A stretch of DNA of 64,000 nt from Ascidia mentula (Eukaryota > Chordata > Ascidiacea > Phlebobranchia > Ascidiidae), in NCBI GenBank assembly GCA_947561715.1, contig OX387205.1, forward strand, positions 4,903,001-4,967,000. The letters are read 5' to 3'. Numbering within the stretch: position 1 is the stretch's first letter; each line of letters starts with the position of its first letter. The notes under the pieces were generated by a model. That model was not told the origin of the DNA. It ran no database searches and worked only from the letters and a program-made list of their open reading frames with translations. The position numbers and the translations under genes were made by a program. Of the stretch, positions 8,694 through 64,000 are shown piece by piece.

Positions 8694-8738
8694 TTAGGCA
8701 TCTTCTTCTCCATATTCATTTTCCATATCAACCATGCC
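8694..8738 (-). other. Receptor A last exon: acidic cytoplasmic tail and stop
   Basis: Encodes GMVDMENEYGEEDA and the stop. The same 14-residue ending with two or three changes closes receptor B at 43512, which confirms the call. The tail is acidic and has one tyrosine in an acidic setting. Confidence 0.85.
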
Positions 8739-11700
8739 CTGCAAGACATAAAATTAAATAATTTTAGTAAAAAAGATTTACACTCAAACAATAACAATGA
8801 GTAATAACTGTTGCAATGACTGATAAAACCATAAATTTAAGGAGCTATTTGTGAATTTAGCAAAAGGAAATACGAAGCCACAAAAATACTGGGTGTAAAT
8901 AAATGATCTATTACCGAAGCTGTCAGGAACATTTATAATAAAAACAATGCTCTACTGACAATACCACTGATTTTATTTAATTATCACACCATGACCTTCA
9001 TTTAAAGGTATTCCTGGTGAAGGTCATTTCATGACAATTGAAATGTCGAAGAAAATTAGTGTTTTACATTACGGCCAGAATATCCTTTTTTATATTATGG
9101 AAATATATGAACTGTGGTATATATTTAGAGAGCCGCAAGTATCGTCAGTTTTTATAACTGTTATGTGTACGTATTTAAATTTTATGATGTTTTCACAAAA
9201 TCTATTTTTCTGTAAAATCAACATCTACAGATCTCTGCTATGTTTGCTCTTCAAACTTTTGATCTAAGAACAATGTTAAAGATTCGTCGCATGCCTGCCA
9301 GAATACCGTGATTAATTGGATCCAGTTTTTTATTTGTATTACACTTACATCAAATTTATAAAATATTTATGATCACAAATCAAGGAAAGACAAATATTCA
9401 AGTCAATCCATGTTTCAAACTCATGTATATTAATCAAAACAGTTGAAATGGGATAAAATGAGACAACCAAAAAACGTTGCCCCTCAAGGTCAAATAGATT
9501 GTTTTAGTACGAAAAAAAGGATCCAGATAATTCTGAAAAATAAGTTCTTGCCGAAACACTTTTTGTCAAACATGACAATGTTAATAACAATATGAGCCAG
9601 TCTTTTTATTCTCTGAATTATAAGGAAATTCGTGATTTGTGTTCCTAAGGATCCAGAGTTCTGATAACTTAATTGCAGTTTGCTTTTTTCTAAATTTCGG
9701 TCCTTAAGCAAATGAATTTATATTCTTTATGCTGTTACCTTGGTATTCGAATATGTGATCGGGTTGTCAAAGCCAGTTGCTGAACTGGATAAGCTACCAA
9801 ATTTGGCAAAGGAAAGGTCCCTGTTACCGCGCATGTACAACATCACTCCAGCTCCCACTGCTATCACCACAAACACAACTGCTATGACAATTCCTGCAAT
9901 ACCTCCTGCATCCAAACCACCACCACCTAGAAACACACAATTTTTCGATTTGCTGTAAGAACCCAAGCAATGCTGTAATAATACAAACAAATGTGCATAC
10001 GTTGTTTAACAAGTATTTTGATACATTGTGCAAGTTTATTCTTTTATTCAGAAACGTGTACAAGGTTTTCTCTCACGTCAAATTATTTACTTTTGACAAT
10101 TCGTGCTAAACACTCATTAGCTTTGTCATATAGCACTACTGCAAATGTAAAGCAAAACAAACAAAATCAGTGATAATTTTTCAACTGCATTGATTTTAAT
10201 TAGCATTCAAACTAATTGAGGTTCGTTACCATTGTTTGGAATGTGGTTTTCTGTTACTCCATCAGTTGTACTTGTTGTGGGGGGTGTTGTGGTTGTCACC
10301 CCAGACGGGGGTGTTGTGGTAGTTTCCCCTGGGTTAGTTTGGGGCTGGTTGGTTGGGGTTGTGGTGTGAGGTGTAGTCGTGGTTAATGGCTCTTCTGGTG
10401 GTTTAGTTGGGGGGTTAGCTTGAAATTGAAAACAATGAACATTTAAAAGAATATGAGCATGAAGGTATATTGGTGTTGAACAATGAATACTTTCCTCATA
10501 CATCATAAAGGAATTGTAGTTTGCTATAAACAGTACACATTATAACCAAAATTTTAAATTCTGATATAAGAAGTATTTTAGGGCTACTTCAAACTTGTGG
10601 CTTTTCATAGCATAGAAATAAATTCTGACAAACATTTACTCATATTTTCATACAAATTTAAATTCTATTTTGAAACTTGTATTTCATTTTGCTTTATAAT
10701 TTTATTTTAAAAATGCATTTTTGAATTATTTTGTATTTTTAACTTAATTTTTATTTTCACATTAAATTTTATTGAGTTTAGTATGCATTTCATTTCTATT
10801 TCGTTTCGTTTATTGTTAAAACATAAAGTGATCTAGATTTGCCAAATTTGAAAAGAGTTTTATCAAAAGCTGTTCTTCAATATGTGACTATCCCATGCTG
10901 GCATACCAACTGTGCATAATAAGCTTATGATTATAAACCAATAATATTACTTACTGACACAACACTGCCTGTTTGCTGGACCTCCACATTTGTTGGTTTC
11001 ATAAACAAAAGAAGGGCAGTAGTTTGAGTTGTACTGACAAGTACCATAACCTCCAGATTCACAAGCTCCATCACCTTGCTCCCAACTTTGAATTTGGCTG
11101 TTGCCTGACGAATAATTTTTTTTTATTTGTTTTATTTAGTGATAAGTGGTAGTGGTTACATGCAACAAGATCGTAACAGGCCAAATGTAGAAAATTAGCC
11201 TGAAGCAAAAAAAACAACAACATACCAAAGGTATATGTCACAAACAACTTCTTAACTTTCAATACAACTTACAAGTGTCATCTGTTTCAGCACATTCGAA
11301 GCAACATCTCTGTCCACCATCACCACTGCACAGGAATTGCTCATACCCAAGTTCACATAGGTTGTGTTCAAAATCCTTGCATTTACCTCCTTTATCCAAA
11401 CATGCTGCATCCGCTGCACAAAAAAATTTACAATTGACTGACAAAGTGTTATGTTTAGTGTTGCAGAGCCGGCAAAACAGATTTTTTGAAAAAAGTATTA
11501 ACAGATGTGGTCGCATTTTGGGGGCAAAAAAATTGATTGTAAAACCAACAAATTTTCAAACAGATTATTACATCTAGAGTAGTAGCACATGTGAGGTCCA
11601 GTTCCTGCCATGTCCCAACAACACAACCTCTGTTGACATTCATATTCACTTATTCCTGGGTAACCACAATCCTGTCGCTCATCAATGGGAAATGTGCAGG

Positions 11701-14700
11701 TGCTGTACACTAAAGAAATAATATAAAACATTGTGTTCAGAGTGTTTCTGAATCCAGTAAAACCAAGTGAAGGAACAAACAATTTACTTTGTATATCAAC
11801 ACTTACTTTTGTGTTTCTTGCAAATATATCCTCTATTTTCTGAGCAGAATGCGTCGTTCCATTTTGCGTTGGTCCACAATTCCACGCATCCCTCATAAGT
11901 CTCTCCTGCATCGTTAGGTTCACCATCAGCCCAGTTAGTGTAATCAACACCACTGCTATCCGACCATTCCCATCCACCTGTAGTGAATAGTGTATAAAAT
12001 ATGAACGAGCTTGAAAAGGTTTTTGTACATTTAAAAAATAAGTTTTACTGATACAATATGAAAGTGTGGGATTATTAATTATTTACTTTATTGAGTTTTT
12101 GCATTCAATTTTATATTTCTTTCTAGAACAGATAGAAAGCGTTTTGTTAATGTATTTGTCAATTTAAAACTGGCACAAATAAAATTATATTAGATGTTTT
12201 TGGTCAATGGTTTACATCACAGCACATTTTTATACCCCATCCATTGCGTTTCAATCCAAGCCACACATGTCTTTGGTCAGTCCAACTTATAAAAGCTTTG
12301 TTTTCGAGATCACTATGAACACTGGCAAGGTAAGCCATGTTTGATTGACAAACAGCATCTGCATCACCCCATGATCTCTGATCTGCTGAATTTGCTCCTG
12401 TAATATTGGAAACATATTGATAACAACACTTGAAAAAATGCACCAAAAAATCCATACATTTTGTAACAATATAAAAACTGACCTGTTTGGACAAGATAAC
12501 AATAATCTCCCATTCCAGCCCATGTTGCTTCACAAGTTCCAACACCAGGATCTTGTGCTGGAATCTCAACTAAAAAATAAAACGTTATATGGCGAAGTTT
12601 CTAAAAAAGGAAGGCACAGTGCTAAATTAGTATTATTTTTGAAAAAGTTAGTTTTTCAGATATGCAGTGGCAGTAAGTACTAACAGGACAGCTTTGAGTC
12701 ATAATTTCAAAACCCATATATGTTTTCCCTCTACATTCATAAAATTACAATGTGGGTAATTAGCAATGCAAAATTTTGAATTACAACTATTGTATTTGCA
12801 CATCTGTTCTATACAAGCACAGTAGAATTTCAGAAGCACTACCCTTCCAAAGGCTTGTATTTTTACAAAAAATCTCACGTGTTTCATATTTGCAGATGTA
12901 AGGAAGGTTGGCTGATTGACAGGAGCTTCCTCCACTTGTCTTCATCATTCTCCACTTCCCATATTTATCAATCACTCCACACCCTGTACCCTCTCCAGTA
13001 TCCACAGGTTGATCAGTGTCCCAGTTTGAATAAGCCACAGGTGAGTGGTCAGACCACATGAAAACTATCTCGCCCTGAGACTCATTCTGAAATACAAAGT
13101 GGAAATATTGTAAACTTTTGGATATTAGGTTTTATTTCTGTTGAACTTTAAGGTTGTCATTAGTTGGACTTTATTTTAAATTTTCCTTCTTTTCTTTTCA
13201 GAATATATCTTATTTAATGACAAAATGCTTGAGTTGAATACTGTTCAATCAAACTTATTTGAATGATTTTTAATTAAAGGTTTGTTAACTAACATAATAC
13301 ATTCCCATCCACATGGTATCAAATGTTTCAACATTTTCTTGTGGCCAGAAAAGAGAAATCAGGAAATGATTTTCGTAAACATTCCACACACTTGACAAAT
13401 CTTCTTTAATTCCTACAAGACAAAACACAACAAATCAAAAAAGTGGCCACAACCAAAACAGTCGTAATCACTAATACATACCATGTACTTGTCCTTCATT
13501 CTGACACGCTGCTCTTGCATCATGCCAGTTCTTGTACATGTTTGTATCTGTGTATACCTTATAACAACCGGTGTCCCACTGTACAAAGTTTTGGTTGGGA
13601 GGACAGTCTGGTGCATCATCGGTCGCTGTGAAAGATTTTAAGTTTTTTCTGTGTATTTAGCTCCATTGCAGGGAGATAGCACATAATAAACCATGTTTTT
13701 TTACAGAACTTTTTTCATTTTAAGTCGAAATTATGAAAGTTTTTTACAGCATTTTTAGTTTGATTTGCTAATTTTGTTGTTTGTCAAATAGTCGTACACA
13801 GTCAGTAAATAATGCATTCAGTGGCAATTCTGAATGCACAAAATATTGACACAAATTACAACAACATGTCAATATACTTACATGTAGGAAAGGCTGGGTT
13901 TTTCATTGTTGAACAGTAAAATGGTCGCACATCACTGCACCTTTGATCATTCCACTTTCCTGCACTGTCTGCTGACCAAGACATCTCAACACATTCCTCG
14001 GCCTTTACAGAAGTTACAGCTACTCATAAACAGTAATTGAAATATACCTTGTATAAAATTGAAATTATAGTTGGTTACTTCACATAAAAAAAAAGCATAA
14101 GGTCTTTTCAAGGTTGTTAAACAATAATATTCATGAATGCCATGATTTTATGTATCACTGTGTTGAAATCGCCAACCAGCTAAAACTTTTTTATAAACAA
14201 CAAGAAAACACAGAGATCTAAAACAAATACAACATGTACAAGACTTTTGTTGTTGCCAGGTTAGGACAATTGGTACTTGCTCAATAACTCATGACATATA
14301 TTAGCACTGACCCCTTCATAATTGTTTGGCTCTCCAGATAACCAGTTTGTGAATAAAACATCCTCGTTGCTTGACCAAACAAACTGACGGTTAGTTCCCT
14401 TAGCATTTAATCCAATCCAAATATTGGATGGCGATACAAAAAGTTTTGATGTAAGGAAAGCTGAAATAAAATGTCAGTTGAAGAGTTCTGTGAGTTTATT
14501 ATTTATATGTGATAATGTTGCAAAGAAAATTAAAAAAATGTTAAACAAGAAAAGCTACCACTAGTTACACTTTTACAAAATTTGTGAAACAACACCATGC
14601 ACAGATTTTTTATAATTCCAACAGGAAATCGTAATTCAAACCAGTGGTTGTTATTGTTTTTGCACTTGCAAATTGCTAAAAATTTAAACAACTTTTACCA

Positions 14701-17700
14701 TCGTGTAACTTTGTTAAATCAAAGTGTATTGAATCAGTAAATAAAAATATTTGACAAGAAGTTTTCATATTGGGGAAACTGGTTGAAAAACACTGATTTT
14801 AAATGCTGATTTTTGAACAATTATGCAATGTATTTCACAGCCTACCATTGTAGTAGGGATTAGTAAGAGAAGCAAGGAAACTGTTCTGTGACTCGCAATA
14901 TGCTTCTGCATCATCCCATGTTGCACGCAGGGTGTCGTCCGTGAAACCAACCTCAAGAAAGCACTTGCTTCCATATGGAATCCAACCCTATGCACAATAT
15001 AATTATGTACTTTTCGTGTAGACAAATATTGTTGGTTAATAATAGAAGTTGTCCAAGTTACTCACCGTTGGACATCCTCCATGTATAACAGGTGCTGGGG
15101 TTGGACTTGCAGGTTGAGCCCCAACATCTTTCTGGCAAATAAATCCATTGCTTATTCCACAATTGGCATCCCTCCACAAACCTGAAACATATGTGTGTGA
15201 AGTTGAATTTACTTGTTCCAACTGCAACAAAACTTTTCCCAGGTAGTCATTGGTTTTATAAAATAAAGATATTGGTGATTTTGTGGTCCTCGCTACGCCA
15301 CGATGGTCAAGTATAGTTGGTTAATGGTTCATGCAAGAAATACCCACCTGATGCAGATAACATTTCAACACACAGTTCGTGACCATTATTATTGTCTGGT
15401 TGTCCACCCAAGTAGTTTTCAAATGTCAATGGTGTGACACCATCCACCCAAATATAAGGACCATCCATACCATCTTGCACCAGACCAATCCACATGTTGT
15501 CCACCCCACTTTTGTGAGCCTTAAAATACAAGGTTTTCTTTTTATAATGTGGTCAAATGAATTACATATGCCAAAGCTTTTCTGGTCAAACTGTATTATT
15601 TTAAATCTTGTTACAACAGAAAAAAATTGGTAAACCATAAAATTAATTGCTTTGTGTGCATATACTTTATAATAAGTAACATATTTATCTTTGCTTTAAA
15701 TGTAGTAAGTATCAGGCAGTACGCACATAGTCAATTATAAATTCCTGTTCATCCAGAGTTGCAATTGTGACAAGGGAGCCACCATAACTCTGACACTCAG
15801 TGTTAGCAGAATGCCAGCTTTGTATCGGTGAGCTGGCAAAGTAATAACACTTCTGTCTGCCTTGACTATTAGTGTAGGCAGCCCAAGCCTTGTCACTACC
15901 ACAAATTTGTGGTGCTAAAAAGTAAAATAATGCAATAAAGTATTATTTTTTATTGACTATATTCAAACAACAGGCAAATAAAAGAAACTAGCACTTACAT
16001 AGCGTGGGTGGAGGAAAAGTAATTGGATCAAGAAGATCTTTGCCTACAAAAAAATATATTTCACGGACTAGTTTAAACACACTTTATTTTTATGTCCTAT
16101 CTTTACTTAATCTCTTGGTTCGTATCAAAACAGCAGGTGAATAGTCAAATGTTGTTGTAATATTATTTGCTAACCACTTACCTCTTTCTACTTTGCATAT
16201 CCAGCTCCTCACACCTTCACAATTGTTATCATTCCACAGTTGTGTGCCCGGGGAATAATCACCTTCCACACAGTTTTCTCTTCCGCCATGATTGTTTGGT
16301 TCTCCTGAACCCTATTGAGAAAACCAAATAAATATACAAAGTCATTCAATATAACTGATTGTCTCTTTAAGGAAGTCTCCAACTGAATCCAAATATTTTT
16401 GCTGAGTCACGTGACCTTTAAATATTGTTTGCTAAATAATTTGATAATGGAGATTGTTCACAAGTTCCGATGGTACCATAGGATATATTTTCAACCACTC
16501 ACCCAATGAGTAAAAGAAACCGGTGTTTTATCGGACCATCCCATTTGACCATCAGGTTGTCGTTTCAAACCAATCCAAAAAATATAATCATAACCTCTGC
16601 AAAAAAAAAACAAGGTCTTGTTAAAAAGATTAAAAGCATATTTTTGATCTTCAACTTACATACCACATATATTGGTAAATTATGTTAGATTAAATAAAAA
16701 TTTATTTTGTCATATACATAAATCAGTCAAAAAATGATGGTGCTAAAGGTATTGTTGTAATGTTTGTTTAATCAAATCTTGTGCAAAAAAACACTTACTT
16801 CATTCCATCAATTATAACCTGTTCTTCATTAGCACTGTGAATACTAACTAGGTTTGCTCCCATTGACTCACAGTGAAGTTTGGAATTTTCCCACGACAAC
16901 CTTTGTGCAACATCCGAAAACTCATTAATCTGTAACACAATGGCATCCAGTAATCATACTAGTTTGAGTAGATCTTAGTATACAATTGATTATATTTTGT
17001 ATCACATCACATACAAATAAGTATGACCAGTGGTGACATTAAAAATTTGGATTTCTACAAGAACATTAAATTATTAAATATATGTCTACGAACTGAATTC
17101 TCTTGATTTGGCACTTTTCAAAAATGCACACTAGCTTTTGCGAGTACCTCTCGCTTCATCAGGTGTAAACCTTTTTGAATACAACAGTCAGTCTTCGTAA
17201 AAGAGTGCCAAATCAAGATAATTCAGTACAAGAACATTATGTAACATACATAATCAAGGTTGTCACGCTAAACAACCATTTCGCAAATTCTAAAAATAGG
17301 TTTACAAAAAAATAATACTCTGTGATGAGCATAAATTCTTTCACTGCAAATGATTCATACAATTTTATCTGCATATGTTAAATACATCATGACCATATCC
17401 AATGTTTCAGTCCTTCACTGACTTTGTTTCAACAGATACAATTGTAATTGAAATACTTCGGTTATAATATAGAAATACGATCAATTTTTATTTCTGCATA
17501 AAATTTCTTACCTGGTAGCAGAAAGTGGAGTTTGCCCATCCCCACCAACCAGTTGGACAGTTACCTGTCGGACTTGGTGGTGTTGGTATTTGTGGTGTTG
17601 TGTAACCAGTCCGTGGTGTTTCACAAATTCTGTTGGAAAATAAATGTCATCTTGGGTTTTATCACATTTTAAAAAACACACCATGTGACTGAAAACTTAA

Positions 17701-38454: not shown

Positions 38455-40234
38455 AAGCGAATTTTAGGATAGTCCGAAGACGTTTATGGTTGGCGATCGG
38501 TGTCATAATTCGTCATATTGTACGCGTACCTTAGACAACGTGCGTGTGCCTTATTAACGAACGGGCACGTTATTTAAAGCCTGGCCAACAGTGTCAAATT
38601 CCGAATAAGAGCGACATCATGTGGAATAATAATGTACACGCGCGTTTATTTTCTCTGCCTTTTGGCAAACACCAAAGGCAACCCCTTTTTTTCACCAAAT
38701 CAAGTGCAGCTTTGGCCCGGCTGTGCCAAAGGTTGCTCATCACTGGTTTTTTCGTTCCAAAATGAGAAAAACCGTATCGGGAACATTATTTTTACGCAAA
38801 ATTTCGTTACAGGAACATATTTTGGTTTTTGAATTGTGTTTCCAAAATCACAATTTGGTTAATATCGCACTAAAAATTGTGTTACGAAAATCGACCAAGC
38901 CAAAAATTACCACTAGATGTCGACAAAGAGACGAAGAAAACGTGGTTTTGCTCACGAGTATAAGGTTGATTTTATTACGAATAGACGTTTCCAAACGTAG
39001 ACACTTACGGGAAGATGAAAATATTAATGAAACATAATTTGCGTTCCGGATTTTTGTTACGGAAACGAAATTTTCGTTACTGGAACAAAATTATCGTACC
39101 AGAAGAATAATTACATTTCCATTGAAGTTACTTTTCGATCGAGGAACACAATTGCCTTTTTTTATGTTACTGTTCGAATGAAATTTTCGTTACGGGAGCA
39201 GAATTTTGGTTACGGGAACGTAATTTTCGTTACTGGAACAAAATTATCGTACCAGAAGAATAATTACATTTCCATTGAAGTTACTTTTCGATCGAGGAAC
39301 ACAATTGCCTTTTTTTTACGTTACTGTTCGAATGAAATTTTCGTTACGGGAGCAGAATTTTGGTTACGAAAACGAAATTTTCGTTACTGGAACAAAATTA
39401 TCGTACCAGAAGAATAATTACATTTCCATTGAAGTTACTTTTCGATCGAGGAACACAATTGCCTTTTTTTTTACGTTACTGTTCGAATGAAATTTTCGTT
39501 ACGGGAGCAGAATTTTGGTTACGGGAACGTAATTTTCGTTTATGGAACAGAATTCTCGTTACGGGAACGGAATTTTCGTTACGTGAACGGAATTTTTGTT
39601 ACTGGAACGTAATTTTTTGTTACTGGAACAGAATTTTCGCTACTTGAACGGAATTTTTGTCACGGAAACGAAATTTTCGTCACTGGAACAAAATTACCGT
39701 ACCAGAAGAATAATTACATTTCCATTGAAGTTACTTTTCGATCGAGGAACATAATTGTCGTTTTATTTAAGTTACTTTTCGAACGAAATTTTCGTTACGG
39801 GAGCAGAATTTTGGTTACGGGAACGTAATTTTCGTTTATGGAAAATTCGTCTTTTTCGATCCAGGGACACAATTGTCGTTTTTTCAAGAAAATTGTTGAC
39901 ATAAATGTCCTTCAAAAAAAAAGGTTTTTGATCCTGGAACAGCGAACTTTAGGATAGTCCAAAGACGTTTATGGTTGGCGATCGGTGTCATAATTCGTCA
40001 TTTTGTACGCGTACCTTAGATAACGTGCGTGTGCCTTATTAACGAACGGGCACGTTATTTAAGGCCTGGCCAACAGTGTCAAATTCCGAATAAGAGCGAC
40101 ATCAAGTGGAATAATAATGTACACGCGCGTTTATTTTCTCTGCCTTTTGGCAAACACCAAAGGCAACACATTTTTGTCACCAAATCAAGTGCAGCTTTGG
40201 CCCGGCTGTGCCAAAGGTTGCCCATCACTGGTTT
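38455..40234. repeat. Nested satellite array between two 290-bp direct repeats
   Basis: Flanking direct repeats at about 38455-38748 and 39942-40234 are nearly identical (both hold TGGTTGGCGATCGGTGTCAT and end CCAAAGGTTGC, then CATCACTGG, a hAT-like end). Between them, 21-24-bp units of the type CGTTACGGGAACGGAATTTT build about 153-bp higher-order units; AGAAGAATAATTACATTTCC recurs near 39101, 39254, 39408 and 39704. Short open frames across it are products of the repeat. Confidence 0.8.
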
Positions 40235-43211: not shown

Positions 43212-43392
43212 TCAGACATTTCGTGAAAACAGTTGCAAACCACCTGTTGTAAAAGAATTTTTTTTTGTGCCTGATGATGACCAACAGCCCCTGCCCCAAA
43301 AGTATTTGCTATGAAGTGAATATACAATACAGTGTAGCTTGTATAAGTTCCTGTATCACTTACAATTTACTACAATCTTGTGTGTACAAAAC

Positions 43393-43398
43393 TTTATT
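43393..43398 (-). terminator. Candidate poly(A) signal for receptor B
   Basis: AATAAA on the minus strand (TTTATT as printed), about 115 bp past the receptor B stop. Confidence 0.5.
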
Positions 43399-43511
43399 AA
43401 CCATGACAATATTTCCTTCACAATATTGGAAAGTTTTATCACGAGAATCAGGAGGAAGTAATCATATGTAAAAAAATTAAACTTTCATGTAAACAAAAAC
43501 AATATTGCACT

Positions 43512-43556
43512 TTAGGCATCTTCTTCTCCATAATCGTTTTCCATATCAACCATGTC
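43512..43556 (-). other. Receptor B last exon: acidic tail and stop
   Basis: Encodes DMVDMENDYGEEDA and stop, matching receptor A apart from two residues. Confidence 0.85.
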
Positions 43557-52500: not shown

Positions 52501-55500
52501 AATGACATGCTTTAATCTCCAAAACAACATCTTCATGTCAATGTTTTTAACAGTATGAGCCAGTCTCTTTATTCTCAGAATTTTTAACCAAATTATTATA
52601 ATTTCAGTCTTTACATTATGTTTTAAACTTCTGCATTAAATTTCCTACCTGGTAGCAGAAAGTGGAGTTTGCCCATCCCCACCAACCAGTTGGACAATTA
52701 CCAGTCGGACTTGGTGGTGTTGGTATTTGTGGTGTTGTGTAACCAGTCCGTGGTGTTTCACAAATTCTGTTGAAAAATAAATGTAATCCAGGGTTCTCAA
52801 AGTTTTTAGGGTCATTGTAATATATTCTGGTATTTTACAATTTCACACAACACATAAAGAAACTCTTCTATAAATTATTGTTAGTTGGTGAAAAGTTTGC
52901 AGCAGACATGAACCCGTTTCACAACACATCAGTGTGACATGACACACAGTTTGAGAAGACACACACTAAACAACCCATCATGTGATTGCAAATCAAAAAT
53001 ATATACCACAAACCCAATCAACCATAGATTTCTAGATTATTAGTAAAAAATCTCGTAAAGTGACAAATGCAGATGTTATATAAAACCTGACCTGTATTCA
53101 GGGGATCCACATCCTACAGGGTTGGCTTGTGACCAGTAACCTGTGTCTTTATCCATCACAATACAACCAACCTGACCATTTTCCCTCCCTTCACACGACA
53201 CAGGGTGACCATCATATATAGCATCAGCAGAACACCATGCAACCCCTGCAATTAATTGTCAAAGTTAAGCTGGGTAATCTATAGACTTTCTATCAACCTT
53301 GTTACCAAATCGATCATAGAGGTCGCCTTCTGAGACACAGTCATAATATTCAACGTTATCATATTGGAATGGAAACACGCATTGATGCACGATATCTTCA
53401 ACAAAAGACAAAAGAAGGAATTAAGAAGTGTAACATATCCTGCTTTTATTAAAAACAAAACCAAAATGTGTTTATAAACAGAACAAACAATTTTTTTAGG
53501 GCATATATGCAAAATTAGCATAAGTAGTGTAGTACACATGGTCCAACTGCAGCCTCACATAACCCTTTGTTATGCACGACAGGGCATTGTTTTTTTATGG
53601 CTATGACAAAAGGCTATTCGGCAAGTATGGCTTTCAATGGGTAGTAGCTCATTTTTATGTCAGCTAGATAGCTAGTCACCATCTTATGTTTCAAATTTGT
53701 AAAATATTAAAAATTGGCAGTTGTCATAAAGGAAAAGTGGAAGATACTTTGTCCCAATGTATGTGTAATGAAGATTTTCACATAATTATTGTGCTAAGCT
53801 ACCCGTGACATCCCTTATCAAACAATGGCCAACAGAATAAACTAACAGTTTGTGACGTTCCCCAATACAGTCAAGTTGGTCTACACTTGTGTAGTACATA
53901 GCATGTAAACCTTACATGGCTCATCTTTATCCCATGCAGTATAGGTAACTGGTTCCCCTGAAGACCACTTAAATGTCATCGTTCCAGAGATGTCAATATA
54001 AGCACTTAAACCAATGTAGAAATTTTCCTGGTCTCCTGGATGGGAAGTTTGTGCTGCCTGACTCGTCAGATACATTTGTTCATAGTAGTTGTTGATTGTT
54101 ACAAGATGACCTCCTTGAGACCTTTAAACAAGTTTATGAATTACTTTAGTTCGGAACTAAAGATGTATCCATTCTGATCGAGATAGTTTTTATTACAACC
54201 TGGCAACTTTCAACTTTGTAGCATGTTATAAACAGGGTTACCATCAGCCTAGTTAAAAAATAAGCCAAAATTGGAAATATTTTAGAAACTTTGTCCTATT
54301 TTGTAAGGATGATAGTTTATATATAACTGTTTTTTTGTCGCACTGGGCTGTCTAAAATTATCTAGCACCACCAAATATCACTAATCATCCATATTAAATG
54401 AAAAATATGCACATTTACACAAGAAATCTAAGCAAGAATTTTGCATGAATAATGTGATCAATATGTTAGCGCAACAAAGGTAGTTTTTTTCAAGTTTTGT
54501 ATAAAAGTTAGACTACCTAGATTATTATTGATAAGCGACAACTTACTGACAGAAATCCTCAGCATTCACCCACACTGATGGGTTAACATCAATCAGATAG
54601 CAAGATGCTTCGTTACCAAGCCAACCATGTTGGCATCCATCAACTTCTACTTGAGCTTGATTGACAGGAATTTTTTCCATCTTGCACACATAGTTCATCA
54701 CAGCATCACAACTCTTATCATTCCATAAACCACTAAACGTTGCAAATGTGAAAATGCTTTGGTGTATTTTTTTGATAAAGAGTAAATAAAAACAAATCAT
54801 TTTTTTAATGAGATAAACTACAATATATGTTAATAAAGATTGGACCAATTCAGTAAGTTTAAAAGTTGGACAACTGTTAAAATATGGTCTTCTTTGATAA
54901 AAGTAATCTAAAACAAAAGGTTTCATAAAAATATTTTGAACCTAAAAATGATGTAAATCATGAATATTTTGTTTTGAAGTGATGATTTTACTGCCAAGAG
55001 CTAACAGCAAAAAAATAAAAGTCAATTATTTACCTCCACTTGTACATGTGAACACAATGTTCTTCTCCGCCATTAGGTTCATTAAAGTCCCATCTGGTGT
55101 AAGTAACATCACTACCATCTGTCCACTTGTAATAATTTTGTGTTTCAAAATCATTCATTCCAATCCACACATCATCAATTGATCCGTCTACAGTTACAGT
55201 AAAATAATAATATGTAAACTGTTGTAGTAATATCTTTTGGGTAAAATACATAATGTCCACCAAAATACAAATAAAACGTACATCCATAAAATACAAGACT
55301 GGTGACAAAATCTTGCTCTGCTTGGCTGTGAATGCTTGCTAGTTTCCCTCCATAGAATTGACACCTATCATTAGCTTCTTCATAATCAACCTTGGATGAC
55401 TTTCTTGTTAAGTAATAACACCAGTCTTTCCAACCATTCCAACCAGTTGGACAACCAAGATGGTCTCCTGTAACACAACGAAACCTACTTAAAAATTAGG

Positions 55501-58500
55501 CAATTAAAAATTAAAAAAATACAAGCTCGTTGTGAAATAAGAAAATATTTAACATTCTGTGTAATAAAAAATTTACAAGTCAATAGATAATTTAGTTACT
55601 TGCTTTACACCAAAAACAAACCTTGGAACGTAATCGATCCAGACCATGGTCCATAGCTATTTGAAGTAATACCATGTTGAGTAGAACTCTGATATGAATC
55701 TTGGCCAGCCACTTTTTTTACTGTCACAACTCCACCATGATCAGCTGCACAATAAGACATGAAATACCATTGCAATTGTGTTTATAAATAGTATTGCCAG
55801 AAGAACTTCTTGTATTGATAATATACAATACACATTTTGCAGGAAGAAGCAATAAAATTGGACTTTTAGTTAATTACCCATTATTCTGCCATCATGAATG
55901 GCTGCAGTGCAGATATAGGAGTTATCAGTGTACACTGTAGTTCCCCACAGTTTATCAGTGATGGAATCACAACCTGCTGGGCAGATTATTTCGAAGGATT
56001 CTTTTTCATAATTTGTGGCTTGGTCAGTGCATGATGCCATGTCTAAATGTAATGGAACAAGTTATGTGTCTGTTATAACTTATCCGAATAAAAAATGCCA
56101 ATATTCTTAGCATAAAATGTTAAATCAACAGAAATTAATAAACTGAACTTACAAAGAACATTCTTCATCGCAAGGAGTGAAAATCAGCATTTTAATCCCA
56201 ATATTTTTCAAATGTAGTTATTGTCTTACCTCCCACATCACATCCAATCACATCCATCTTCATTGCAATGTTAGTGTTCCAAGCTTGTGGTAACACACGG
56301 ATGTGTTGGGCAGAAATTGCTTCACGAAGAAATCCTTCAACTGGTGTGTTTCGATCAAAATTGCCTGGAAACATCTGCAAAAAATGTCAGAAATTTGCAT
56401 CAAACAATTTTTTTTTACATTGATGGAACTTAGAATATACTTGATTCAATAATTTTATTTTTACCCTATCTACATTCTTCTTGTATAAGTATTCATGTAA
56501 AAATATTTTTGGGCCTGAAATATATGTTTTATTAGTCTTTGACAAAGGCATAAAGATGGTCATGACTAATGTTTTGGTAACTGTCTCACTGGGACATCCA
56601 TGAACTTAATTGCTGTTAAAAAAATCATTTACAGAGTCTCCGCCGTCTGCCTTTTTGTAGTTGGTGAAAATACTTCCATCTGTGCTGAATGCGATTTTGT
56701 AGTCAGTCACCCATTCGTCAAGTTCTGAGTTGCCTTGAATCAACACCCCCGAAATCTGAAAACCAAAGAAATACAAGTTGTTTTATACACAGGTTACAAT
56801 TCCTAGCTATTTTAATTACCCAAACAGACAAAAATTTTTACTGTTCATGATGTTGTTTTATGTTGTTTTGTTTATATTCAGCCTTCATTCTTTCACAAGA
56901 TGAACGAATTTGCCCATTCTGTTGACATAGCAAAAACACTTACCTTTCTAACAGCACCAAGGTCAACTTGCAAATATTCCTGATCACTGTTTGTCGTAGG
57001 TTTCCATACTTTCGAATTAACCGCTGAAAATGATATATTATCAAACAAATTAATGCATGTACTTTCTAATAAACCATTTACGTTTGGATGAAATTGTGTC
57101 AGGAATGCCAAAAACAAAAAGCTACATGCTACAATAGCAGCGTATAATCTTTTAATTAGTTTCTTTTAAACCAAAATGATTTTGCAGCATGGATCTTTAA
57201 AAAAACTTACCACAACACCACACATGTCCTTTATGGGGACAATCATCCTCAGTGGTGTTATATGGGTAGCATGGACCAGTAACCAGACCCCAATTTGGTG
57301 GGGTGTACAAATCATTGTGACGTTGGCAAAGTCGCTGGGCTTGTCCGTTTTGATCATTACCAACTTGTACCCAATCGTTATAACGATCACTTTAAAAAGA
57401 AAAAATAACAATGTTTTTGTTTAAGGGATTGGGCAAAAATGTTTGAGAGACATAAGAGAAGCTTTTTGGTTATTTATCAACCGAAGAATATTTGAAATAG
57501 TCCCTAATTACAACAGTGGGGTTGGACAATGAAATGATGAAGCATGCAACACAAAATATTCCCTACAAAGCTATAGTATTACACCCGACAAAGTGAGCAT
57601 TCTTTCTTTTGTTCTACCTAATAGGTGACCATTGGTCTCCATCTATAATTCCAGTGTAGATGGGTGTGCCATCGGGACAAATTTCTGTAGACATGCACAA
57701 GTCACCACCCATCTGTGTACAGAATGCCCTCGCTGTATCATAACTTAAAGCAGAAGAATCCATTTCGTAGTGTTGGATGTTTTGAAGACCTACAAGCATT
57801 TAAAAAGTATGTGTTGGTTTAATTCTCATGCTGGTCAGAGCAGAGGCCTTTTTTAATTTTACAATCCAATATGTTTGAAGAAAATCTCAATCTACGTCGA
57901 AGTTTATGAAGAAAATGTTAGTTTATTTTTGTTAAGTAAAGAACAGGCTAATCAATGCCAACAAATGACAATGTAAATTTTTTACAGCAACATTAATTTT
58001 GCTAAACCATAATTTTAAATCAAACAGATACAAATACAAAACAGTATTACAATAAATTTTGAAAACATGCATAACCTTACAACAATGAGTTTTAAGTTAA
58101 AACTTGCATCTAAACATGAATACAGTTAATGTCTCTCAATATTAAAGTTTTTATTGGGCCCATTGAAGAAAACAACTTCAAGGTGAACCAGACAGTGTTT
58201 GGTTCCCTCATGTGTTAATGAAATTGTATCCAACTAAGATTGTCAATCATGAACTGTATGTGATGATGAACTTAGTTAGAATTAGCATGGAAATAAGAAT
58301 TATCTACAAGTCTATTTGAATAAGGTACTTTCCTTTATGTGGCAGATTTCTACTTAGTTATTTTACGCTGTTTTGTACACTTTGCAGAAACTGATGATGC
58401 CCTTTTCAGAGCGAAATATATTTTTCTGACAAAAATAAAAACATCTTTAAAAGAGCTGTCTGAAAGATTGACTTAAAAGTTTTACTCAGCTACTACAGAT

Positions 58501-61500
58501 ACGGTATCGACCGACAGCCTACCAGGGTGGCTTGGTTCACCGATCCGGTGTTGTTTATTGTTTTTTATCTACAAGTCATTTAGAAACGAGAAATTAACCA
58601 CCAAAGTTCAGAAGCAGCAATGTAATGCACATATACGTATGCACTTACTAAGGGTAAATATAACTTTAAAAGGTAACGAAATACTGAGTTAGAATATATG
58701 ATCTATATCATCTGCCAATATTTAACTAACAGCCTTGAACTTAGTACATTTTATAACTAAAAGACACCCATAGTTTTAAGATAGTCTCCTGAATCAACCT
58801 ACCTTCCCCAGCATAAACAAGCCTGGCATGGTATGGTTCAAATCCTGTTTGAAATGATGAAGCAGAAAACATGCTGTCATCTAACACTGGGTATGTGTTG
58901 TCAACTACATCGTTTGAAATGCCTAGTGAACTGATGCATCTGCAAATGAATATTTTAATGCAATGCTAAATAGAAATTTAATTTTCATTCACAAAAATGT
59001 CAGTTAAAAGCATGGCCTATAGGATTCCTATTATAGTTAAAGATACTTAACTATTTACAGGAAATTTAAAGCCAGGACACTATTCTTTTACTTACGTTGG
59101 CAAACATCCAATCAGTTCAATTCTCATTGCACACTTATGCCTGCAACTGGTGGGTAGAACTCTGATGGCAGACGTTACAATAGGACGTGGAAAGACATTG
59201 GTAACTTGTGAGTCTTGGTCATAATTTGCATCAAATATCTGCAAATTAAAATTTTTTAAAGTTGTACCCATTTTGGAACATTAAGCAAAACATAAAGCAA
59301 TGGTCACCGGCACACGGCACTAAGAATTATATTCCCTGTGATGAATTCTAGATATTTATAACTGGATTGTTTCAGGTGATTCTTGCACTTTTATATTAAT
59401 ATTTCAAATTCTAACAAATTTTTCAGATTTTTTATACATAATATGTATAAAAAGAATTCTGTAACAGGGCCAGCATGATGCATCACTACCGGAATGGAAG
59501 AAAGTACATATTCACACAAGAAAATTGTGACATAAATGTTTCAATCATAAAGAAAACATCAGAAATTTGTACCGTTATACTTCCATCTATGTCAGTGTAG
59601 TCTTCATATAGATTTTTGGCACTATTGATGAGATACTGGATGCTGTATTTCTTTACCCAATCGTTTTGGTTTTCAGGTTGGCTTAAACCATTTCTCCCCT
59701 AAAATGTAAGTAAACTACAAATAATTAAATAATATAAAGTTTTATTTAAATAAAAAATAAACAAACTTTGCAACAATTATATAAAAACAGAATAACAGCA
59801 ATGAAGAACCACAGAAAAACATCTTTGAAAAGCACCAAGACACATACATTAAAAAAATGGGCAAACAGAAACACTGTTCTTTTTTAACCGTTCACCTGTG
59901 AAACAACACCACGAATTTCATAGAAGTCAAGAAGGTCAACTTGTATCCATGGAGCAGGATCACTTTCTGCTGCAATCCAAGCACCAAGACCAGGCCCAAC
60001 ATCAAGCACACCACTAAGTGAACAATAAACACATTTAATTTCAGGTTTTCTGATAGTTCTGATCAACAGTTTAAAAAGCAGTAAAAGAGTGGTTGAGCAT
60101 TAGTGACATGTTGATTTTTCTACATTATGAGCAATTAAACAAGTATGCATACATGTGATTATCCAATGTGTTAAGCCTTCCTCTATCTGCAGGAGAAGTG
60201 TCTTTCCACTGGCTGGATGAAGAAAGCTGCTTGTCGAGAACCCAACCTCCAACTTCAACACCTACATGACGGAAGCAACAATCTTCTGATGTGCAATCTA
60301 CATCAGGTTCTTCTTCATGGCTGAAAAGTAATGTTGGTACTAATTAAATTCATTAACACTGTTACAAATACTATCACAAAAAGAGAAGCCCAGTGCCTCT
60401 GTCAACACCTCAACTGGTGAGACCTTATGCATACACTAGTCTGCAGCTTTTAAAAGTAACCTTGTTCAAAAAAAAATCAAGCACAAAAATAAAATTTAAC
60501 AGATACTTTTCATTAAATTATCAAAAAGTAAGAAATAAAACTAAACCAATTTTTTTCTTTTTATTTGTCTATTGAGCTATGAATAGCAGGTGCACACAAA
60601 TAACAGGCTGTAAATTTTTGAAAAGCAAATAGACTTACTGTTCCGGATCATCCTTTTCACATATAAATGGGTAGTAGTTGGTGCAAGGTACATCACTCCA
60701 CATACCAGAGCTATCTGCTCTTATCTGGAGACAGTTTTCATCTAAGTTGCCATTTGGTTCACCTGAAATAAACAGCAAGTACACAAAACTAAACAATTGG
60801 TCATTGCATTAAGCTTTTGTAAAGTTTTGTTTGTATTTTTTGTGATAATAAACAAAAAAACAAATGCCCATATTACAGAACATTTGCTTTAGTTACACGA
60901 ATTTGTGTCAAATTGTATAAATCATTTGTTTGATCAAATTTAATAGAATCACATTTTGTTATTTTATTAAGATTAGAAATCACTAGGTTGTGATGCTTAA
61001 ACAAGCACACTTCTCTTCTTTTACTTAATCCATGTCCAGCAAATGCAAAAAAGTCATTACAACCTGCAAACCAGTTAACATAGTTGAAAGGTGACTCATC
61101 AATCCACCTCCAACCACCATCAAAAGCATCAATTGCATCAGGGAAAAAGTCAGGCCCATTATATGCGTCAAGACCTCCAGTCCACAAAGCCGCAGCATCC
61201 ATGTACACAATGTAATCTAAAAATATTAATAATTCTTCGGTACCGTATTACAACATAGTTTAACCTTAGTAACTTTGAAAAGGTCATATATCTCATTTTT
61301 GTGAGAAAACATAGAAGTAATGCCATGCTTTCGCATAGCAAGGCAGGATCGCCCTACAGCACAGGCCCTTTTATATTTGGCCATCACACCTCTAATATTC
61401 TGATCATAAGGTTCACAGGCTTCGCAGCCAAGGCATTGCAGCCAAGCTGGATCAGCCACTTTTCCCGGCAAGTCGGAGCGAGATCTGAAAAATCAAGCTC

Positions 61501-64000
61501 CCGGTGAGGTTTGAACTCACGACCCTGGGCTAACCAGGCCCAACGCTCTTCCAACTGAGCTACAGGAGCTCAGTGGTTGCACGGGGTATATTGTGGCCAA
61601 GGTATACACTGGTGTGCAAGCGCACAACTTGTCAGGCGACCTTCACATGCATAAAGGATCTCCACCACCGTAATCAGACAACGCAGAAGTAATACCATGC
61701 GTTCGCATAGCAAGGCAAGGTTTGTGAGAAAACATTTATTTAGTTACTCTGTTTTAAAACTAGATATTATTTTAATTTTATGAAGGAAAAGTCAAAGAAA
61801 GTTGACTCACTCTCAATAAATGCTTGTTCTCCAGGAGAATTGATGCTAACCAAATCACCACCTTCTTGTTGGCATTGCAATCGTGCATCTGCCCATTGTC
61901 TTCAATACAAAAATAGTTTATCAAAACTTTTGCAACAAACCATTGGAGGAAAATCTCTGGCTCTTTTTTTAAAAGCATTGACATAATTTAATAGCCATAA
62001 GGCAAATTGTTGAAACACACCTTGTATATTTGCTCTCAATTCTGTAACATCTGTGATCTGTTGAGTAGTGAAGCCAGTTTGTCCCGCAAGCACTTTCATG
62101 GGGATCAGCTAAAAAAAGATACATATGTTTTATTTTCCTAATATTTTATGTAAAAAAAAATGTTGAGAAACACTGTGTTAAACACTCACGTTCAACTGTA
62201 GGTGGGTAGTGTGGTATGACACTCACTGCAAAAATCACAATAATAAGAAGTAAAATTTTAGTAGAAGTTGGGAAAAACCTCCAGAAGCAGGTATTGCCCA
62301 TTTGTGGTAATTTTTTTTTTATTTTTAAAATCTTAACATTTATGATATAAAACAAAATATGAAATTAACAACATTTACAACATAGGTGCATGTCCTAATT
62401 ATTTATATCCTATATCGTGCTGGTAAAAAAAACAGTAAAAGAAGCAATATGTGTATCTTATGAAAGTTGAACAACATTCATTCCTCCTAATTTATTGGCA
62501 AAGCAATTTTTGTGTCAAAGGTGAGGTTATTCTTTAACACAGAAAACAAAATATTTTCTATTCAGGCTGCGCTTAACTAACTATTTGTTTTAGGGCCCAA
62601 TGTTTTTTTACACTTTATTACAGTTGTTTGTTATTTACTAAGTTTACCTGCAGCTTTTTTGCAAATGGGATAAACTTCTTCAAAACATTCTCGGTCATTC
62701 CAAGTCCCCCACGCTCCTTCAGTGTCCACTCCTACTATTCGTATACAATCTCCATTTGATTCAGGTTGATTGAATTTCCAATTGATGAAGTCCTTTTGAT
62801 GATAAATATATTAGCAATGGAGTCAATAATGTTTTGAATTGGCTGTAGACTGATGATAAATAACATGGAAAAAAATATTTGAGAATTGATTCTGGGAATC
62901 ATTTCCCATTCTGTTGCAAGCTAATTCTTAATTTGCTTTTATAGACACTGATGATGCTTTTAACGAAGCAAAATATATATGTCTAATTAAAGAAGACTGA
63001 AAGATTTTAACCTGAAACGAAAGTTTCCTAGACAGTTGGAAAAAATATGCTTACTTTCACAGAAAATGGAAGCCTGTTTTTTACACAGGTTTTTATCAAG
63101 GACGTTTTCAAGCAATGTTTTAACAAAACTACTCCATTGACCTGATTGCACCACTGGCCTCCTTCACTATAATTTAAAGACTGCACTACAACTGATATAC
63201 TCAAAAATGGAGACCAAGATTTTAATAGTTTTGTATTACTAAAATGAAAACCTGATTTTTTCGTATATTTTCAACCTCCCTCTCAGAAAGTTTTTTAACT
63301 TGAAGATTTAAAGGAAGATTTAAAACCTTATTTCTGTCCTTGCAACTTTCAATGGACTAAATTTGCCTTTTTTTGTTAAAACTAATGAAACACCCCACAA
63401 CTAGGAAGCATAAGTGAAGCCAGACAAATTTTTGGTCAAAATTAACAAACCTTCCAGACAACTAGTAAAAAAAGTGTTTCAAATTATCATTGCGGTATAG
63501 TGTGAAATATTTGTGGGCTATTTGAAAAAACTGGTAATAGTGAAGATGCTTATTGGTGGTGTATGTTATATCATGGTACTTGGTCACTGTATATAAGCAT
63601 GTACTACAACATCATACACAGAACTTCAGTTCATAGCTTTTAACAGAGTAATGAAAAATAGAAAGAAACTGTATTTACTTACCAGGGGTGTGTTGTCTGA
63701 CCACTGATATGATCCTTCAAAGACCTTGTCATTTAATCCAATCCATGACTGGCCCTTAAGGTGACCTGAGAAAAAAAACACACACAAGTTGTTTGGTCTG
63801 TTTTTCTCAAATAGAACATTTTTTTGTCTTTCACATCATTGTTACCTGATATAAATGTTTGTTCGACGTCATTGTGAATGCTCACTAAATCACCATATCC
63901 CTGCTGTGCACTCTGACAGAATGTCCTGGAATCATCCCAGCTGAGCTGTGTGTCATGGAACAAATAACATTGTCCCTCAAGCAATCTCCATCCGCTCGAA
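43512..64000 (-). CDS. Receptor B: tandem paralogue of receptor A, 5' end off the window
   Basis: Exon-for-exon counterpart of receptor A from its CTLD4 (63846-64000, open at the edge) to the stop at 43512, about 49 exons. It keeps the same domain order, intron phases, micro-exons and both nested insertions. It therefore comes from a head-to-tail duplication of the whole gene or of a block including it. Its first exons, signal peptide and CTLD1-3 should lie beyond position 64000. All exons seen are open. It differs mainly in the stalk, the FN2-like module and the tail. Being upstream of receptor A on the same strand, it could have a separate promoter or, less likely, be part of a longer array. 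Function as for receptor A: a multi-glycan surface receptor, by inference. Confidence 0.88.
43814..44016 (-). other. Receptor B exon: transmembrane helix and endocytosis motif
   Basis: Same helix as receptor A, then a tail with GFDNPVTYSNTK. The juxtamembrane part reads GSLYGTKSTSSASG, five residues longer than in receptor A, and adds a tyrosine. Confidence 0.85.
44216..44410 (-). other. Receptor B Thr/Pro stalk
   Basis: Thr/Pro-rich like receptor A, but with an extra TTTTPPSGV-type unit and without the HTTTP segment. This fits repeat slippage in a mucin-like spacer. Confidence 0.8.
44669..44818 (-). other. Receptor B six-cysteine module 2
   Basis: GDGACESGGYGTCQYNSNYC and CGGPANRQCC are kept from receptor A with few changes, which suggests constraint on this module. 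Confidence 0.65.
44880..44990. repeat. Short dispersed repeat (CTGATGATGC family)
   Basis: GAAGACCTGATGATGCACAC followed by GGGTGAAATATATATTTCT resembles the core of the retroposon at 58313-58564 and a stretch at 62930-63000. It is not in receptor A's matching intron. Confidence 0.5.
45082..45222 (-). other. Receptor B six-cysteine module 1
   Basis: DAACLDKGGKCKD then CELGYEQFLCSGDGGQRCC, nearly the same as receptor A. Confidence 0.65.
45292..45429 (-). other. Receptor B trefoil domain
   Basis: Same CTFPIDERQDCGYPGIS and CQQRLCCWD as receptor A. With the next exon and the intron between, it forms a block almost identical to receptor A. Confidence 0.85.
45527..46842 (-). other. Receptor B CTLD12 (EPN, WND)
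   Basis: Exons 46756-46842, 46489-46650 and 45527-45697, with the same DGEPNDAGE and KWNDAFC motifs. The first internal intron carries repeats at 45985-46300. Confidence 0.85.
45985..46300. repeat. Member of the AGGTC/GATGAGACCT dispersed repeat family
   Basis: In reverse sense it reads CTGATGAGACCTTCTAGGTC, AAAACAGTGGCC and TGTCTGCAGCTT, matching 29460-29525 and pieces at 48380-48475, 27135-27200 and 60400-60460. Words such as GGCCAAGCAAAG occur twice in it. It is non-coding. Confidence 0.55.
47140..47868 (-). other. Receptor B CTLD11 (sugar motif degenerate)
   Basis: Exons 47725-47868, 47540-47658 and 47140-47350. As in receptor A the EPN position is altered (here EPV) and WND is lost (KWRMM). 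Both paralogues keep the degenerate form. Confidence 0.8.
48107..49382 (-). other. Receptor B CTLD10 (EPN, WND)
   Basis: Starts in 49365-49480, then 49053-49194, 48619-48767 and 48107-48227. The triplet region reads AEEPNNYEG with KWNDQRC. Confidence 0.85.
48380..48475. repeat. Fragment of the GATGAGACCT dispersed family
   Basis: GGCAAAGTGGAGCCAAT, then CTAGGTCGAAACAGTGGCC and GCAGCTTACAC, match pieces of 45985-46300 and 29460-29525. Confidence 0.5.
49427..50215 (-). other. Receptor B CTLD9 (QPD, WRD: galactose-type)
   Basis: Exons 50028-50215, 49648-49819 and the start of 49365-49480. GGQPDNNNGHELC and LWRDANC are kept, so the galactose-type triplet predates the duplication. Confidence 0.85.
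50302..50346 (-). other. Receptor B 45-bp linker exon
   Basis: Counterpart of the receptor A micro-exon at 15999-16043, with the same length and phase. Confidence 0.65.
50696..50926. mobile_element. hAT-type MITE, 231 bp
   Basis: Ends CAGTGTTTCCCAACTGGTGG and, inverted, GGTTGGGAATCACTG. Flanking 8-mers are GTCTAATG and GTTTAATG (7 of 8 match). Internal GGTGGTACGC is repeated several times. It lies in a CTLD8 intron of receptor B only. Confidence 0.85.
51390..51530. repeat. Fragment of the GCCAGTCTCTTTATTCTCAG repeat family
   Basis: CAGTCAAACTGATGATG occurs twice, followed by TTTTTGTCGAAACGTC and ATGGGCCAGTCTATTTATAC. It is similar to 9540-9625 and to the right end of the MITE at 6885-7120. 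Confidence 0.55.
52445..52590. repeat. Foldback MITE in the CTLD7-8 intron of receptor B
   Basis: AATTCTGAGACTAAAGAGAC then TGGCCCATACTGTTGAAAAC on the left faces TTTTTAACAGTATGAGCCAG then TCTCTTTATTCTCAGAATT on the right. It is a short inverted-repeat relative of the GPI intron MITE. Confidence 0.65.
52757..54632 (-). other. Receptor B CTLD7 with nested FN2-like module
   Basis: Starts in 54547-54732, then 53916-54121 (WSSGEPVTYTAWDKDEP), the FN2-like module, and closes in 53092-53245 (GCIVMDKDTGYW) and 52649-52766 (ICE). Same arrangement as receptor A. Confidence 0.75.
53187..53384 (-). other. FN2-like module inside CTLD7 of receptor B
   Basis: Encodes CVFPFQYDNVEYYDCVSEGD in exon 53306-53395 and AWCSADAIYDGHPVSC in the next. 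The first half differs clearly from receptor A (QIEG, IRDGP) while the second half looks identical. Confidence 0.7.
54674..55467 (-). other. Receptor B CTLD6 (EPN, WND)
   Basis: Exons 55282-55467, 55034-55187 and the start of 54547-54732. Same triplets as receptor A. The introns lack the two hAT elements found in receptor A. Confidence 0.85.
55622..56042 (-). other. Receptor B LCCL domain
   Basis: Exons 55878-56042 and 55622-55744 with ICPAGCDSITDKLWGTTVYT, then DNSYICTAAIHDG and YGPWSGSI. Receptor A reads DDSY and PGSF here. Confidence 0.9.
56230..57023 (-). other. Receptor B discoidin domain 2, C-terminal part
   Basis: Exons 56944-57023, 56633-56755 and 56230-56374. Motifs EYLQVDLGAVRK, ISGVLIQG and HIRVLPQAWNTNIAMKMDV are as in receptor A. 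Confidence 0.85.
57211..57790 (-). other. Eight-cysteine module inserted in discoidin domain 2 of receptor B
   Basis: Exons 57618-57790 and 57211-57389. All eight cysteines and the ICPDG, GDQWSPI and WVQVG blocks match receptor A, so the insertion predates the duplication. Confidence 0.65.
58313..58564 (+). mobile_element. SINE-like retroposon, 252 bp, perfect 13-bp target duplication
   Basis: TTATCTACAAGTC flanks it at 58300-58312 and 58565-58577, and receptor A has one copy at the empty site. The element contains AAACTGATGATGCCC, GAGCGAAATATATTTT and GCTTGGTTCACCGATCC and ends TTGTTTATTGTTTTTT, a T-rich tail. It has no coding capacity. Confidence 0.75.
58803..58939 (-). other. Receptor B discoidin domain 2, N-terminal part
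   Basis: CISSLGIS, FSASSFQTGFEPYHARLVYA as in receptor A, again cut off before the third strand by the eight-cysteine insert. Confidence 0.8.
59096..60320 (-). other. Receptor B discoidin domain 1
   Basis: Exons 60153-60320, 59896-60013, 59573-59698 and 59096-59238, with GLGAWIAAE, PWIQVDLLDFYEIRGVVSQ and RVLPTSCRHKCAMRIE. Intact. Confidence 0.85.
61313..61720 (-). mobile_element. tRNA-bearing retroposon, 408 bp, terminal direct repeats, perfect 15-bp target duplication
   Basis: TTTGTGAGAAAACAT flanks it at 61298-61312 and 61721-61735. The element begins and ends with copies of a roughly 36-bp direct repeat (AGAAGTAATGCCATGC, then TTCGCATAGCAAGGCA; the right copy has a few changes). A tRNA-like stretch lies in the middle, not at an end as in ordinary SINEs. 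A partial relative is at 27255-27390. It has no open frame. Confidence 0.8.
61497..61569 (-). tRNA. tRNA-like sequence inside the retroposon
   Basis: 73 nt on the minus strand. The acceptor pairs GCTCCTG with CGGGAGC (one G-T pair), the D arm is GCTC/GAGC with box A-like TAGCTCAGTTGG, the T arm is GTGAG-TTCAAAC-CTCAC, and the anticodon stem TGGGC/GCCCA closes loop CTGGTTA. Read literally this gives anticodon GGT, but there is one extra base before the anticodon stem. It is more likely a SINE promoter than a working tRNA gene. Confidence 0.5.
62190..62225 (-). other. Receptor B 36-bp linker exon
   Basis: Encodes VSVIPHYPPTVE; counterpart of 31069-31104. Confidence 0.65.
62648..64000 (-). other. 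Receptor B CTLD4, partial at window edge (QPE, WND)
   Basis: Exons 63846-64000 (open), 63683-63765 and 62648-62792. Motifs LEGQCYLFHDTQLSWDDSRT, GDLVSIHNDVEQTF, SWIGLNDKVFEGSYQWSDN. The intron at 62793-63682 is 0.9 kb with a CTGATGATGC-family fragment near 62930-63000 and nothing else recognised. Confidence 0.85.

Follow-up and report, generated by a model that had tools for sequence, protein, structure and literature searches.

A tandem pair of mosaic lectin receptor genes with nested domains in the ascidian Ascidia mentula

Here we describe two neighbouring genes of the ascidian Ascidia mentula, A and B, which form a tandem pair of intact gene models, each predicted to encode a type I membrane receptor of ~2,690 aa. 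We read the pair as a new elaboration of a chordate receptor plan about which little is known, and its most unusual feature is the nesting of exchangeable modules inside other domains. Both genes were found in the window, that is, the whole 64,000-nucleotide stretch analysed (C73:4903001-4967000, contig C73 being GenBank OX387205.1), which belongs to a genome assembly of 195.8 Mb in 79 contigs; coordinates given without a contig name are window positions. A mammalian-type COX1 chain from PDB served as the reference in an alignment of COX1 from contig C79 (19,461 bases). In the aligned stretch, 13 of 16 AGA/AGG codons fell at glycine, two at alanine, one at glutamine and none at serine or arginine, and all five TGA codons fell at tryptophan. 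Translation of AGR as glycine is the tunicate mitochondrial code, so the mitochondrial code of the host is that of a tunicate.

The A and B models come from a splice-aware dynamic program whose scores combined codon use, splice sites and A/B conservation, and were then corrected by hand. Gene A spans complement(8694..36677), with 61 exons encoding 2,686 aa, and gene B spans complement(43512..67725), with 61 exons encoding 2,693 aa. Positions 43512..64000 of B lie in the window, and inclusion of the flanks placed its start codon at 67725, 3.7 kb beyond the window. All introns are GT-AG (60 of 60 in A and 60 of 60 in B, with a median length of 229 nt in A), and neither model contains an internal stop. 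The two proteins share 92.9% identity over 2,680 aligned columns, with dN of 0.034 and dS of 0.189 (NG86; dN/dS about 0.18). As dN is far below dS, the protein has been constrained since the copies diverged, and chance ORFs are ruled out by this difference together with the A/B identity. An earlier note on this DNA had read two head-to-tail genes on the minus strand, which the models bear out, and the limits that it gave, 8694 and 36677, are exactly the stop and start of A. It had also proposed extension past 64000 to count the copies. A blastn comparison of the window and its flanks (140 kb) revealed a duplicated block on the minus strand, at ~9.8-35.1 kb in A and ~43.9-66.9 kb in B, and no third near-identical copy in these 140 kb, a search that more diverged copies could escape; a multi-copy array was rejected on this basis.

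Synonymous divergence is uneven along the pair: dS reaches 0.51 in CTLD1, 0.56 in CTLD4 and 0.48 in the stalk, as against 0.07 in CTLD9 and 0.08 in CTLD6, and synonymous changes per codon in 25 segments gave a rough chi-square of 111 at 24 d.f. This pattern suggests that patchy gene conversion could account for the differences. Several other elements were seen in and around the genes. An intron of A (27051-29540) holds a retroelement fragment with plus-strand frames at 27414-28178 and 28139-29035, one matching reverse transcriptase and the integrase zinc-binding domain above cut-off and the other matching the integrase core below cut-off. One intron of B contains a tRNA-Thr (GGT) gene (61495-61570, same strand as B), the only tRNA detected in the window; all of A lies within the window. 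A 154-bp unit is repeated 5.2 times in tandem between the genes (39050-39843), with a nested 20-bp repeat, and a phosphoglucose isomerase match of 60 bits on the plus strand (4046-4381) is probably an exon of a gene to the left of A.

To assign domains, A was scanned against Pfam in ten pieces covering all but the signal exon, and each family exceeded its curated cut-off in its own piece. The scan returned 12 Lectin_C stretches, two F5_F8_type_C (discoidin) matches, LCCL, fn2, Trefoil and DUF7495 (PF24325). All of the A features lie on the minus strand. The protein begins with a signal-peptide exon read from the sequence (MESVGAWTILIALLFIGR; 36623..36677), with a similar exon of B at 67674-67725. 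Five CTLDs follow: CTLD1 and CTLD2 (32989..35057; Lectin_C 65.8 and 72.6 bits), CTLD3 (32253..32931; 44.4 bits) and CTLD4 and CTLD5 (29541..32065; two stretches, 132.1 bits). The middle of the chain comprises discoidin 1 (25964..27050; 62.6 bits), discoidin 2 (22443..25015), which is split by DUF7495 (23531..24150; 55.2 bits), and LCCL (21379..22105; 85.6 bits). A second group of CTLDs consists of CTLD6 and CTLD7 (17512..21237; two stretches, 124.3 bits) and CTLD8 to CTLD12 (11807..17629; 148.0 bits in two stretches, 109.2 bits in two and 69.3 bits in one), with an FN2 domain inside CTLD7 (17859..18168, made up of exon 18079-18168 and the first part of 17859-18012; fn2 33.6 and 36.1 bits). The chain then continues with a trefoil (11572..11709; 39.8 bits), two six-cysteine modules (10955..11413; exons 11273-11413 and 10955-11104) and a C-terminal part (8694..10418) with a P/T-rich stalk (10230-10418), a transmembrane segment (TM) recognized from the sequence and a short GFDNPITY tail (9739-9926 and 8694-8738).

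The B domains were assigned from the alignment to A, an LCCL match and a partial fn2 match, and they keep the same order, also on the minus strand. Discoidin 1 lies at 59096..60320, discoidin 2 at 56230..58939 with DUF7495 at 57211-57789, LCCL at 55622..56042, and CTLD6-12 at 45527..55467 with FN2 in CTLD7 at 53092-53395; the trefoil, six-cysteine modules, stalk, TM and GFDNPVTY tail occupy 43512..45429. The window includes nine B CTLDs and ends, at 64000, within CTLD4. These assignments match the twelve CTLDs of the earlier note, nine of them visible in B, and its two discoidins, LCCL, FN2-like and trefoil domains, all of which are over the Pfam cut-off in A. The note had missed DUF7495 and the nesting in discoidin 2 and CTLD7. 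Its two six-cysteine modules are present in the sequence of A, and Pfam gave no family over cut-off for either (one sub-threshold match for the first and none for the second).

In A and in B, reading of the sequence gave a single signal exon and a single TM near the C terminus, and exon phases are consistent across the 61 exons. That each gene encodes one membrane-anchored chain, as had been proposed from the start, is well supported by the models. The alternative, several separate genes fused by the model, could draw on the 2,490-nt intron that separates CTLD5 from discoidin 1 in A and contains the retroelement fragment. However, the matching B intron is just 318 nt long, LCCL and CTLD6 of A are separated by only 141 nt, and each copy has just one signal exon and one TM. 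In addition, in the model of C, a paralog on the same contig, CTLD5 ends and discoidin 1 begins within a single exon, and one open tblastn match crosses this junction. Such a fusion is thus extremely improbable, and breaks at CTLD5/discoidin 1 or LCCL/CTLD6, the places at which the single chain had been expected to fail if it did, are unlikely given the C exon and the 141-nt spacing.

A, B, C, a neighbour of C designated C', and a more distant gene D make up a small family in this genome. Paralogs were sought with the discoidin-LCCL and trefoil-to-tail pieces of A and with LCCL, fn2, kringle and DUF7495 as queries. C' and C form a second tandem pair at C73:11.12-11.165 Mb. The C model runs on the plus strand from C73:11141671 to about 11164807, its last exons being uncertain, and aligns with A in order at 36.5% identity over 1,337 columns and 30.8% over 990 columns. 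It reads CTLD1-5, a discoidin, the N-terminal part of a discoidin, a kringle (94.7 bits), the C-terminal part of that discoidin and LCCL, followed by CTLD6, CTLD7 with a nested FN2 (42.2 bits), CTLD8-12, a trefoil (37.8 bits), a TM and a GFDNPM tail. Pfam scans of C covered kringle-LCCL, CTLD7 (with and without FN2) and trefoil-to-tail, and the rest of the order comes from the model together with tblastn and a blastp comparison with A. The C model keeps the A/B order, including the FN2 in CTLD7, the trefoil and the TM, whereas a kringle replaces DUF7495. The kringle host is incompletely modelled (16.5 bits, below the cut-off of 28.2) and is called a discoidin from its position and from 41% identity to A over 44 residues. 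C' lies directly upstream of C, with its 3' end, a TM followed by GFDNPVV, at C73:11139221-11139513. It has a kringle upstream of a discoidin end and LCCL, and an FN2 between two CTLD7 parts, so that in the part seen its order agrees with that of A and B. D (C69:302001-319000, minus strand) is partial, cut at both ends. It shares discoidins, LCCL and many CTLDs with A and B and differs in that one discoidin encloses a trefoil (44.1 bits). Between its two discoidins lie another trefoil and a CTLD, and LCCL and more CTLDs follow.

In four cases the nested module was left out of the host sequence, and each time the host-domain match became longer. In A, the discoidin 2 match widened from profile positions 23-125 (78.6 bits, in the longer, 380-aa piece) to 3-125 (84.3 bits) without DUF7495, and the Lectin_C match of CTLD7 from 4-82 (53.8 bits) to 4-107 (63.9 bits) without FN2. 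CTLD7 of C extended from 8-76 (the better of two stretches) to 8-107 without FN2, and the D discoidin from 25-126 (84.6 bits) to 2-126 (88.0 bits) without the trefoil. The discoidin inserts, DUF7495 in A, kringle in C and trefoil in D, are exon blocks with phase-1 introns at both ends. Phase-symmetric blocks of this kind are the classic modules of exon shuffling. In the D discoidin that has no insert, a phase-1 intron is likewise present, near the trefoil site of the other D discoidin. By eye, the insertion points of A and C and that of D are close but not identical, lying before and after the loop tryptophan, respectively. The FN2 of A CTLD7 sits after the loop that normally bears the sugar motif and before the last strand region; its 5' boundary is phase-1, whereas its 3' boundary falls within an exon. 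Exon shuffling may thus have placed phase-1-flanked modules in the discoidin loop, which would create new binding heads. A bolder reading is that A-D represent a class of chordate receptors, ancient, distinct from mannose receptors and absent in human, in which a discoidin loop with phase-1 introns acts as a socket for modules (DUF7495, kringle or trefoil) and one CTLD has FN2 in place of its sugar loop; we regard this as possible, somewhat short of an even chance.

The genome contains further loci with these domains. The locus at C71:5.79 Mb combines a kringle with an FN2 that precedes a mannose-receptor-like CTLD. A single open frame of 1,843 aa at C73:10166973-10170866 (minus strand) gave three fn2 and six kringle matches. 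LCCL exons form tandem runs, often ~0.5 kb apart, at C72:5124980-5182581, C69:1890517-1912016 and C67:1649638-1657835 (150 of 634 candidates scored), and the density of these runs suggests arrays or giant poly-LCCL genes. Of 770 candidate CTLD exon matches, 150 were scored, and about 105 of these (hand count) fall in C1:22.42-27.62 Mb, a cluster that is a large lectin gene expansion. Such exon-by-exon scans are weak evidence for absence, as they missed the A fn2, the DUF7495 exons of the window and, with 150 scored, the CTLDs of the window.

The nearest plan that we found in print, likened by architecture, is DEC-205-FUSE, a predicted gene of Fugu rubripes of about 2,000 residues (Zelensky and Gready 2004, PMC514892). 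In the text available to us, it is described with five N-terminal CTLDs, a middle part with LCCL and FA58C, and then ten CTLDs (seven in v.3); the prediction had no cDNA/EST support, and the authors reported no human orthologue (PMC514892). A shows the arrangement of v.3, with five CTLDs, discoidin and LCCL, and seven CTLDs, the order of LCCL and FA58C in Fugu being left unfixed in that text. Likenesses to the available description are the five N-terminal CTLDs, the middle LCCL and discoidin, the C-terminal CTLD group, the large size of the protein and the gap between LCCL and the next CTLD (135 bp in Fugu and 141 nt in A). The differences are one discoidin and about 2,000 residues in Fugu as opposed to two and 2,686 aa in A, and the Fugu description, as far as available, has no nested DUF7495, kringle or FN2, no trefoil, no six-cysteine modules and no tandem pair; the words 'trefoil' and 'kringle' are absent from the text of PMC514892. 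A text search for DEC-205-FUSE by name returned, besides PMC514892, only an apparently unrelated antibody-vector paper. Literature searches on the domain combination, covering titles and abstract openings among the matches listed, with few subscription journals, gave no report of the plan in a tunicate or of the nesting. From architecture, we infer that A and B are a tunicate form of the chordate plan predicted as DEC-205-FUSE, related to it by descent. The earlier note had named the mannose receptor family as the nearest plan and had thought the system a candidate for being undescribed. As judged from the available Fugu description, DEC-205-FUSE is nearer, although the C-terminal CTLDs are mannose-receptor-like, and 'undescribed' was too strong for a plan of 5 + LCCL/FA58C + 10 (7 in v.3) already predicted in pufferfish.

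By sequence, the solved structures closest to A belong to the mannose receptor family (MRC1, MRC2/Endo180, PLA2R/FcRY and DEC-205/LY75), with which A and B share a long CTLD array, a type I chain, a short tail and FN2. Along the yolk sac IgY receptor and PLA2R chains, CTLD2-6 are matched one after another by CTLD6-10 of A, and part of this correspondence extends to DEC-205; the domain numbers of the family chains were counted by hand from the FN2 match. Other matches are out of order (CTLD9-11 of A to chain CTLD7-8, and CTLD8 to DEC-205 CTLD1), CTLD11-12 are out of order relative to the family chains, and CTLD1-5 align without clean order. Shared ancestry of the C-terminal CTLD block with this family is a plausible explanation, the support from order being confined to CTLD6-10. 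The architecture differs in other respects. No cysteine-rich (ricin-type) domain was matched in the ten Pfam pieces of A, in which CTLD1 directly follows the signal exon. In the mannose receptor family, FN2 lies between the cysteine-rich domain and CTLD1, whereas the sole fn2 match of A is inside CTLD7. Family members have 8 or 10 contiguous CTLDs, whereas those of A form a group of five and a group of seven, with two discoidins, DUF7495 and LCCL between them. These three architectural features, together with the tail motif discussed below, rule out a canonical mannose receptor. DCBLD-type receptors combine CUB, LCCL and discoidin, and no CUB match was obtained in the Pfam scan of A.

The EPN and WND residues typical of Ca2+-dependent mannose-type sites are kept in CTLD6, 8, 10 and 12 of both A and B. 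The full set is missing from the other eight CTLDs: CTLD9 has QPD with WRD, CTLD5 (read from the model) has EPN with WSD, and the sugar site of CTLD7 is broken by FN2. The uptake motif of the mannose receptor is given as PhixNxxY in the text available to us (PMC4229073). This motif was not found in the tails of A (FDNPITY), B (FDNPVTY), C (FDNPMAL) or C' (FDNPVVS), because the spacing in A and B is longer by one residue and the tyrosine is missing at that place in C and C'. All four tails share a GFDNP core, the sole candidate uptake signal visible. Judged from these sequence features, A and B are most likely multivalent glycan-binding receptors for scavenging or endocytosis, with uptake mediated by the tail. 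CTLD6, 8, 10 and 12 would hold glycans by Ca2+-dependent, mannose-type binding, the discoidin, LCCL, FN2 and trefoil modules may add contacts to protein, lipid or matrix, and the GFDNP tail could recruit an adaptor that leads to uptake. The innate recognition role proposed earlier would also be plausible.

Two other functions were weighed. The receptor could serve matrix or cell adhesion, its modules holding collagen, mucus or neighbouring cells and uptake being secondary (Endo180-like binding or a structural role). Discoidin, FN2, LCCL and trefoil domains are typical modules of matrix and mucosal proteins, and the eight incomplete sugar sites and the unmatched PhixNxxY motif would fit such a role. 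On the other hand, EPN and WND are retained in the same four CTLDs of both copies, the CTLD block is mannose-receptor-like, and the short tail with its conserved core suggests adaptor binding; on balance, we consider adhesion as the main function rather unlikely. Alternatively, A and B could be polymorphic receptors for self/non-self recognition: allorecognition occurs in tunicates, and these large receptors come in tandem pairs (A/B and C'/C). With overall purifying selection at a dN/dS of about 0.18, near identity of A and B in most segments and a domain order conserved in the old paralog C, this is very improbable. For the explanation as a whole, in which A and B are a tunicate form of the DEC-205-FUSE plan with mannose-receptor-related CTLDs, acting as a multivalent scavenger or endocytic receptor with exon-shuffled heads, we put the chances at about even.

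Together, A, B and their paralogs are independent evidence for the reality of a DEC-205-FUSE-type plan. As far as we found, this plan otherwise rests on one unconfirmed pufferfish prediction, and A and B supply duplicated, selectively constrained gene models for it. Their presence in a tunicate plausibly dates the plan before the tunicate-vertebrate split. The A-D family, with different domains set within the same kind of discoidin host, offers a clean case in which to study how exon shuffling may produce nested domains. If the discoidin loop does act as a socket for modules, specificity in these receptors would evolve by the exchange of nested modules while the scaffold remains constant.
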